A stretch of DNA of 64,000 nt from Thamnidium elegans (lineage: Eukaryota > Mucoromycota > Mucoromycetes > Mucorales > Mucoraceae): assembly GCA_025201345.1 (NCBI GenBank), contig JAIXMG010000001.1:2604001-2668000 (forward strand), written 5' to 3'. Shown in pieces: positions 20,186-22,968 of this stretch. The notes beneath the pieces were generated by a model. The model was not told where the DNA came from. It searched no databases and saw only the letters and a program-made list of their open reading frames with translations. Position 1 is the first letter of the stretch. Each line of letters begins with the position of its first letter. The translations under genes and the position numbers were made by a program.

Positions 20186-22748
20186 TTAAAGCTTATCGTA
20201 GTACTTATCAAGACCGGGAATATCTTCAACAAGACCCTTTCTCTTACGGACGGTACGAATGATATCGTAAACCTTGTTTCCGGGTTCGGTAGGGTTTCCG
20301 GGCATAATTTGCCAATGATCGAAGACAGCTTGAGGGAAAGCTTGACCACCAGTAGCGGCACGAAGATCAGCAGTGAAACCGAAAGATTCGTTAACGGGCA
20401 AGTAGGCCTTGACAGCAACCATGGGGGTACCGGGCTTTTGTTCTTCAGAGAAGACTTGACCACGACGTCTGTTAAGACAAGAGTAGATACCACCGATAGC
20501 GGAATCGGGACATTGGATTTCGACGAGGTAGACGGGTTCTTGGATACCGGGGGTAGCGGTAAGCATAGAAGCATACATGACACGACGACAAGTAGGGATA
20601 ATTTGTCCACCACCACGATGGATAGCATCAGCATGAAGAGTGACATCGAGGATGTTGAAACGAACGGAACGGACGTTTTCTTCAGCAACGGGACCTTCCT
20701 TGGTAGCCCATTGGAAAGCGGCAACACAAGAATCCTTGATTTCACCGAGGTATTGGACTTGCTTGGTAACATCAACAAGGACGTTAGGACCAGTACCGTC
20801 AGGACCGAAACACCAGATCTTACGAGCTTCAGTAACATCCCATTCGTACTTATCGGCTAAGACACGAGCACGGAGCTTGAAATCATCCTTGGCAGAGATC
20901 TTACCAGCATCAATTTCATCAGCGAGTTCATCGTTAAGAGGAAGAGCACGCATGTAGATACGGTTATGCTTGTTAGGAGACTTGGAAAGACAGTCAATGG
21001 TAGATTCAGCAGTGACGGTTTCACGGTATTGGACAACGGGGTCACCAGTCTTAAGAGGAACTTGAGCGTGATCCTCTTCCAAATCCTTCAAACAAATTTC
21101 AAGATGGAGTTCACCAGCACCGGCAACAATATGTTCACCAGAATCGGAAGTGAAAGTCAAGACACAAGGATCGGACTTAGCGAGACGCTTAAGACCTTCA
21201 ACAAGCTTGGGGAGATCGTTAGCGTTCTTAACATCAACAGCAACTTGGACAACAGGTGAGACAGAGAACTTCATGACCTTCATGTTGTGAGCAACTTCGG
21301 AGGTGGTAATGGTACCAGACTTGACCAAGAATTGATCAACACCGACAAGACCGATAATGTTACCAGCGGGACAATCCTCAATGGCTTCAACGTTACGTCC
21401 CATCATGAGAACAGTACGTTGGATAGACTTGACAGCGAGATCAGTCTTGGAACCGGGAACGTAGTTAGGACCTTGGATTCTGACCTTCATACCAGCACGA
21501 ACGGTACCGGAGAAGACACGACCGAAAGCGTAGAAACGACCCTTATCGGAGGTGGGAACCATCTTGGAGACATACAACATAAGAGGACCGTTAGGATCAC
21601 AAGCAGTAATACCACGAGCACACTCATCATCAGCGGGACCTTCGTACAATTGAGCACAACGGTAAGCTTGAGAGGTAACGGGAGAGGGAAGATGGATACA
21701 GATCATTTCCAAAAGAGCATCACCAGCGGGCAAGAACTTACGCATAACGACCTTAAGGAGGGCCTTACCTTCCAAATCCTTCTCATCAGCAGCAAGGTTA
21801 ACTTCCAACTTTTCGAGGAGAACCTTGGTTTGATCCTTCTTGAAGTTCATGATAGAATCAAAGACACGGTAGATAGGATCCAAAATGAACATGTTGAAAG
21901 CACGTTCGAGTTGCTTACCCTCAGCATCAGTAGACTTGGTGGTCCACTTCTTGGTCTTAGGGTTGAAGTAGTTTTCACCCCAAAGCTTACCCATCATCTT
22001 CTCCTTATCGACACCAAACTTCTTGGCATAACGGATAGCGAATTGACGAAGAGTGAAACCCCAACCGTGAAGACCGGAAGCGAAAGCAACGGTACCCTTT
22101 TCGGGGTAGACTTGACAATCACCGAGAGCTTCATCAACATAGGTGGCGATGATAACGTTAACGGATTCGATAGTACGAGAGAAAGAGTTGTAAAGTTCTT
22201 CCTTATCCAATTGGAGTTCGAGAAGAGCACGATCCATCTTGTTAAGACAGATAACGGGCTTAATACGTTCATTCAAAGCTTGACGCAAGACAGTCTCGGT
22301 TTGGACACAGACACCATCAATACAATCAACAACGACAAGGGCACCATCGGTAACACGAAGGGCAGCGGTAACTTCAGAAGAGAAATCGACGTGACCAGGA
22401 GAATCGATCAAGTTAATCAAGAAAGCGGAACCGTTGGTCTTTTGGTTCTTGATTTCCTCAATATCCTTGGGGTCGCTCATTTGGAAATAAAGAGAAATAG
22501 CAGTAGACTTGATAGTAATACCACGTTCTTGTTCATCCTTACGGGTATCCATGAAACGGGCCTCACCGGCACGACCGGAAGAGATAATACCGGCCTTGGA
22601 GACAAGGGAATCGGTTAAGGTAGACTTACCGTGATCGACGTGAGCAATAACAGACATGTTACGCACATTGGTAACCTTGTCCATCAAAGTACGGATTTCT
22701 TCAATTGTGAAATTCTATACATAAATACATTGAATTAGCTCGTGTTTT

Positions 22749-22783
<35 letters not shown>

Positions 22784-22968
22784 TTTGTCAATTATTCCAA
22801 ATACTTACAACTAAATGGTCATAGAAAAAAAAATAAAAATAAAAATAAAAAAATAAAAAAAAATAAAAGTGTTAGTTTTTGAATGATTTTTTGAATGATA
22901 ATACATCCATCAATTAGATGTTTAGTTCTTGATGGATGATATCGTTTGAGGTGTCAATACGTACCCAT
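20186..22968 (-). CDS. EFT: translation elongation factor 2 (eEF2)
   Basis: The main exon, 22714-20186, encodes 842 residues from [16 protein letters not shown] to the conserved end DKYYDKL. G-domain motifs are clear: [17 protein letters not shown] and NKMDR, with the conserved [13 protein letters not shown] loop. The diphthamide-site histidine is present in [10 protein letters not shown]. eEF2 catalyses GTP-driven ribosomal translocation. Codon usage is extremely biased, as expected for a very highly expressed gene, and this creates long antisense open frames. The start Met and Val are not adjacent to the main exon. The best model is ATGG at 22968-22965, an intron (22964-22811), a two-base exon TT (22810-22809), an intron (22808-22715) and then the main exon, giving 844 aa beginning MVNF. 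If that is wrong, translation would have to start at MDKV (22684) and lose a conserved segment. Confidence 0.92.

Follow-up and report, generated by a model that had tools for sequence, protein, structure and literature searches.

A putative two-nucleotide exon within codon 2 of both eEF2 genes of a fungus close to Mucor

eEF2 is an essential and very highly expressed gene. In the stretch of DNA analysed here (the window, 64,000 nucleotides in total), its main exon opens with AAT TTC ACA ATT directly after a TATAG acceptor, and the locus raises the question of how the start codon and the conserved Val2 are joined to this exon in frame. The best explanation, which we consider very probably right, is that both eEF2 genes of this genome carry a genuine, obligatory exon of two nucleotides, TT, and that the introns on its two sides are most likely removed singly. 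The organism is placed near Mucor by the closest matches listed (94% to a Benjaminiella eEF2 entry and 96% to a Mucor flavus EFL1 entry).

Layout of the eEF2 gene and competing gene models

The landmarks that the first-pass annotation had described for this gene were all in place (Table 1). The main exon, beginning at 22714, runs open for 842 codons to a stop that ends at 20186; GTAAGT at 22808 directly follows ATTTAG and the TT (22810-22809); and ATGG is followed by GTACGT (22968-22959). GT-AG introns flank TT in both eEF2 copies (ATTTAG/TT/GTAAGT), and AAAATGGGTA around exon 1 of copy 1 was also found in copy 2. The frame argument of the first-pass annotation holds as well. The joining of ATGG, TT and AATTTC in copy 1 gives a protein of 844 amino acids starting with MVNFT, whereas the direct joining of ATGG to AATTTC shifts the frame and ends after a few residues (MEFHN and a stop in copy 1, MEFHY and a stop in copy 2). 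Retention of intron 2 in copy 1 yields MVVSIWNN and a stop, and retention of intron 1 yields MGTY and a stop. The TT is required both for the frame and for the conserved Val2.

Table 1. Features of the two eEF2 genes. Positions refer to the window, except for those on L009, the locus of copy 2 on contig C45.
Feature	Position	Strand	Details
Exon 1, coding part	22965..22968	-	ATGG (start codon and base 1 of codon 2); context AAAATGG
Intron 1, 154 nt	22811..22964	-	GTACGT...ATTTAG (end CATTTAG); 3' half T-rich
Candidate branch site, intron 1	22871..22875	-	CTAAC; motif match only
Two-nucleotide exon (predicted)	22809..22810	-	TT, second and third bases of the Val2 codon; also TT in copy 2 (L009:4027-4026)
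18-nt block	22800..22817	-	CATTTAG/TT/GTAAGTATT; same in both eEF2 copies
Intron 2, 94 nt	22715..22808	-	GTAAGTAT...CTAAT...TATAG; TA repeat inside
Main eEF2 exon	20186..22714	-	842 codons and stop; expected translation-GTPase domains present
Main exon of copy 2	L009:1336-3864		2529 bases

Starting from ATGG, we enumerated gene models with GT-AG introns no shorter than 35-40 nt and one internal exon of at most 59 nt. TT alone restored the frame in a three-exon model of copy 1, while copy 2 allowed TT and a 53-nt exon; TT is the sole enumerated micro-exon that restores the frame in both. The first-pass annotation had regarded this ATGG as the only suitable start, and a search for an alternative start common to both copies returned none within 886 nt upstream.

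Other ways of beginning the protein were weighed against the two-nucleotide exon. A single intron could connect another upstream ATG with the main exon, as with ATGGAT/GTATTA at 22910, which would produce MDNFT. There are eight frame-preserving one-intron models in the 886 nt upstream of each copy, including a copy 1 candidate with a good donor (GTGAGT) and a 638-nt intron, and the ATG of ATGGATG (the 3' arm of a hairpin described below) is in the lists of both copies. Nevertheless, exon end, donor and peptide were never the same in the two copies, Met-Val was never produced, and the ATG common to both lists leads to MD in copy 1 but to MDECF and longer peptides in copy 2, all of which makes such a start highly improbable. 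The interval could also be read as a [D1,2] stwintron, in which removal of intron 1 generates ATGGTTGTAAGT and the second step uses ATG/GTTGTA, leaving TT intronic and the protein beginning with MNFT. This reading keeps the frame, resembles the donor-splitting introns known from ascomycete fungi, and agrees with the MNFT start of two of the 36 listed Mucoromycotina annotations (Radiomyces and Chlamydoabsidia). We give it very little credence, as (i) GTTGTA matches the GTAAGT consensus at GT only, with a perfect GTAAGTAT starting 3 nt further on, and (ii) Val2 would be lost, though 44 of the 57 listed proteins outside Mucoromycotina begin with MVxF. Translation from the internal Met13 (MDKV, 22684), with the upstream introns all in the 5' UTR, appears just as implausible. 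In 14 of the 36 listed Mucoromycotina eEF2 entries the annotated protein indeed begins at an internal Met, MDKV for instance, but a missed micro-exon has been reported to shorten the N-terminus in the same manner (plant VPS55; PMC8831610). In addition, the codons upstream of Met13 are in frame in both copies and match those of relatives, MVNFT begins 12 of the 36 listed Mucoromycotina entries, and a transcript that skipped TT would offer MEFHN and a stop first.

The second eEF2 copy as an internal control

Among the matches listed for the genome (34,138,715 bases in 64 contigs), the whole main exon is covered by two, namely copy 1 and the locus on contig C45; the 20 others are partial and weaker. 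The main exons of the two copies differ at 11 of 2529 bases, nine of them third positions, and at two of 842 residues. Upstream of its main exon, copy 2 carries AAAATGG followed by GTAAAATATT, an intron 1 of 152 nt ending with CATTTAG, then TT and GTAAGTATT, and an intron 2 of 161 nt that ends with GCTTAG before AATTTC. The ATGG/TT/AATTTC architecture is common to both copies, and intron 1 is of nearly equal length (154 vs 152 nt).

The intron sequences themselves have diverged. When intron 1 without its last seven bases was aligned between the copies, 42 of 300 shuffles aligned equally well or better, and for intron 2 without its first nine bases 145 of 300 shuffles equalled or beat the alignment. 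Despite this divergence, CATTTAGTTGTAAGTATT, an 18-mer spanning both splice sites, is identical between the copies. Not one of 3000 dinucleotide-shuffled pairs reached a shared word of 18 (the maximum was 17, seen twice), and in a separate run none of 300 did so (maximum 14); T- and A-rich runs favour long chance words in shuffles, and the shared 18-mer is not such a run. Its exact sequence occurs at two places only in the 34,138,715 bases, both in eEF2 genes. Matches with up to two mismatches are uninformative (8 genome sites vs 10 for the reversed control). For eEF2, the sequence, the frame and the conservation between the copies are directly established, and the predicted two-nucleotide exon recurs in a related gene of the same genome.

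The motif taken alone is unremarkable. Bare YAGNNGTAAGT was observed once in the window against 0.99 expected and is not significant by itself, and TTTAG-N1-5-GTAAGTAT is not enriched genome-wide (25 matches; reversed control, 21). Of the 23 sites of the latter pattern outside eEF2, 15 have an open frame of 50 or more codons that reaches from 100 nt or more upstream through TTTAG, as expected for ordinary donors inside exons. A general enrichment of tiny exons is rejected on these counts. With the looser spacing N6-35, 161 matches were counted vs 109 for the control, among the matches listed. One site, L036 (G000:C25:264228-264244), shows a long T tract ending with TTTTAG, followed by GTTT and GTAAGTATT; in this intron-like context a 4-nt exon is possible. 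For the eEF2 exon, what appears decisive as an excess over chance is the recurrence in the second copy with diverged introns, and this copy lends strong support to the two-nucleotide exon and the ATGG start put forward in the first-pass annotation.

The eEF2 copies belong to a duplicated block. Near both of them are a nucleotide-sugar transporter (63% protein identity), in opposite orientations at the two loci, and a gene of uncertain family, 47% identical as protein, whose weak beta-propeller match is below the Pfam cut-off. Because these two neighbours in the block have diverged to such an extent, the two-nucleotide arrangement is probably old. In contrast to the diverged neighbours, the eEF2 main exons share 99.6% DNA identity, which would point to gene conversion confined to the eEF2 exon. 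The shared 18-mer is an island outside the near-identical exon, which would point to selection on the splice sites. Gene conversion is unlikely as the source of the 18-mer, as the island is flanked on both sides by non-aligning sequence and the near-identity of the main exons stops about 11 nt past their border. An assembly artefact is likewise unlikely, since contig and flanks both differ between the copies. Elsewhere in the window, pieces of transposase (window:2074-3970) gave weak, below-cut-off Pfam matches to HTH_Tnp_Tc3_2 and DDE_3, and on C45 relatives of the DDE_3-matching piece lie ~25 kb away from eEF2 copy 2.

Splice signals and the route of intron removal

Both U1 family matches in the genome begin with ATACTTACCTG, which is complementary over 8 nt to the donor GTAAGTAT. 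Since TT itself contributes no consensus pairing to U1, the intron side of this donor is maximal. The first donor of copy 2 (GTAAAATA) is weak. In intron 1, the A of the nearest branch motif, CTAAC, is located 61 nt before the last base in copy 1 and 50 nt before it in copy 2, and the sequence from CTAAC to the acceptor is free of AG in both copies. In intron 2, the motif CTAAT is found at 20 nt (copy 1) and 23 nt (copy 2). For comparison, five introns of EFL1 were fitted in this genome with the Mucor flavus protein as guide. They measure 58-76 nt, and their nearest branch motif lies at 20-25 nt in three of the five and is missing in the other two; this set represents a single gene and includes one intron fitted with the unusual donor GTTTGT. 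A hairpin, CATCCAT...ATGGATG, is possible in both first introns (window:22964-22880; L009:4179-4095). Its excess over chance is suggestive and we do not claim it (z -3.05 in copy 1, with two of 200 shuffles equal; z -1.36 in copy 2, with 16 of 200).

From these data we infer the actual splicing, its order and the constitutive inclusion of TT as follows. Exon 1 would give ATGG and the tiny exon TT, which together encode Met-Val before NFTIEEIR of the main exon. The flanking standard GT-AG introns would most likely be taken out singly, by intron definition, and the missing exon contacts would be replaced by strong intronic signals, that is, the U1-matched donor GTAAGTAT and a T-rich acceptor tract with a far-upstream branch site. 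If intron 1 is removed first, ATGGTT/GTAAGT would result, leaving a strong donor for the second step; removal of intron 2 first would work too. The recursive order with intron 1 first is plausible, and the opposite order fits the sequence equally well. Stepwise splicing seems the likeliest route, because intron definition has been demonstrated for fission yeast and deduced from stwintrons for filamentous ascomycetes (PMC6616335), and stepwise intron definition has been proposed for APC11.

Alternatively, the two sites of the same exon could be recognised together, in a manner resembling exon definition and with no fixed recursive order. The distant branch site and upstream pyrimidine tract of intron 1 would leave room for U1 at the donor, and CTAAC at 61 and 50 nt indeed stands apart from CTAAT of intron 2 at 20 and 23 nt and from the 20-25 nt of EFL1. 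The 4-nt exon of human MPC1, whose branch points lie at -68 and -63, has been reported to undergo splicing by exon definition (PMC9929638). In the light of this report, the first-pass annotation goes too far in stating that both splice sites cannot define a two-nucleotide exon at the same time. Nevertheless, the branch sites of eEF2 are motif matches, the comparison set comes from a single gene, with a branch motif in three of the five introns, and intron definition is the mode established in fission yeast and deduced for filamentous ascomycetes (PMC6616335). We regard joint recognition as an unlikely route, albeit one that deserves some weight.

Related fungi, known ultra-short exons and significance

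The comparison of eEF2 starts in related fungi that the first-pass annotation proposed was made on protein N-termini. We used the best 120 of 7994 scored homologs, which are cluster representatives with several per species and mixed annotation methods; groups were assigned from organism names, and 27 nameless entries (21 of which begin with MVxF) were excluded from the test. An MVxF start was found in 44 of 57 named entries outside Mucoromycotina vs 12 of 36 Mucoromycotina entries, with a Fisher p value of 3.4e-5 that is indicative only. Of the other 24 Mucoromycotina entries, 14 start at an internal Met, two with MSVIAH and two with MNFT; two have a different residue 2, and in four the first residues are unrelated or missing. 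This pattern would fit a missed tiny exon or a split codon 2; an ordinary intron near the start would shorten annotations too. Before NFT, mucoralean annotations carry MPFPLQF- (P0005), M- (P0008), nothing (P0014), MG- (P0016), MDRSCKE- (P0018), MA- (P0020), MVDRLLLIV- (P0024) and M- (P0026). Such inconsistency suggests annotation trouble at this junction. In the search of other genomes with eEF2 DNA, one distant match to a bacterial record (35% identity) was found, and none on viral contigs; putative conservation beyond this genome is therefore read from protein N-termini. It is attractive to speculate, although we place this somewhat short of an even chance, that an obligate two-nucleotide eEF2 exon is ancient and Mucorales-wide, predates the duplication of the block, has been kept by an intron 1 with a distal branch site, and causes the inconsistent annotation of N-termini.

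Several comparable systems have been published. Arabidopsis APC11 contains a 1-nt exon, for which a combination of intron definition and recursive splicing was proposed, and the same paper recounts a 9-nt exon of potato invertase whose second intron is removed first (PMC4674806). A 1-nt exon with a conserved strong GTRAGT donor is reported for plant VPS55 (PMC8831610). Like eEF2, APC11 and VPS55 carry, with an ordinary intron on either side, an ultra-short internal coding exon that restores the frame; this exon is missing from annotations, and shortened or different N-termini are predicted; stepwise removal, as we propose for eEF2, was proposed for APC11 (PMC4674806). The plant exons, however, are of 1 nt and proven by RT-PCR, whereas that of eEF2 is of 2 nt, lies in codon 2 of two diverged copies in a mucoralean-type fungus, and is known from DNA. 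Among fungi, the 1-nt exon of Fusarium CYP621A, which its authors call the first for a fungal gene, was similarly inferred from frame and a conserved motif, and the paper cites exons of 2-5 bp in Arabidopsis, Drosophila and humans (PMC12940212). CYP621A differs in being a rarely expressed P450 with SRA read support and a single G between AG and GT; eEF2 is an essential gene with 2 nt and a duplicate as internal control. Xlr2 of Trichoderma virens likewise has a functional micro-exon in a filamentous fungus, with none described before according to the abstract (PMC11121469), but its glucose-dependent inclusion switches protein forms, while inclusion in eEF2 looks obligatory.

MPC1 shares with eEF2 a micro-exon that is not a multiple of three, a distant branch site (in eEF2 the predicted ones at CTAAC) and a displaced pyrimidine tract; its sites are still spliced with an exon of 2, 1 or 0 bp, and the authors suggest that the distant branch site helps to overcome the closeness of the two sites (PMC9929638). 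The 4-nt exon of MPC1 is constitutively included (PMC9929638), as we infer for eEF2. The two differ in that MPC1 has kilobase introns and reported exon definition, whereas the eEF2 introns are 94-161 nt with predicted branch sites. Recursive zero-nucleotide sites also present an acceptor and at once a donor, and are removed stepwise (PMC13149111, PMC8605326), but nothing is kept in the mRNA; in eEF2, two frame-required nucleotides lie between AG and GT and must be kept. Fungal stwintrons resemble eEF2 in placing two standard introns in one interval with consecutive reactions (PMC6616335). They differ in that one intron lies within a splice signal of the other and divides it, whereas the eEF2 introns interrupt no signals: with TT kept, the signals of both are intact, and only the very weak ATG/GTTGTA reading would qualify.

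Among the best matches of a mostly non-subscription literature, where absence is not proven, we found no earlier report of this case, be it under fungal micro-exons in general, exons of 2 nt, micro-exons from Mucorales or Mucoromycota, or micro-exons of eEF2. As 1-nt exons are already published in plants and Fusarium, eEF2 adds a predicted 2-nt case whose internal control is unusually clean. If splicing proceeds as modelled, an essential gene contains an exon close to the minimum length, and every productive eEF2 transcript must cope with the steric constraint of an acceptor-donor spacing of 2 nt. Mucor, in or near which the organism belongs, has genetic tools, and two diverged copies in one genome offer a natural test of the removal order or of the distant branch site. 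The two-nucleotide exon may also explain why mucoralean eEF2 proteins in databases start at an internal Met (14 of the 36 listed).
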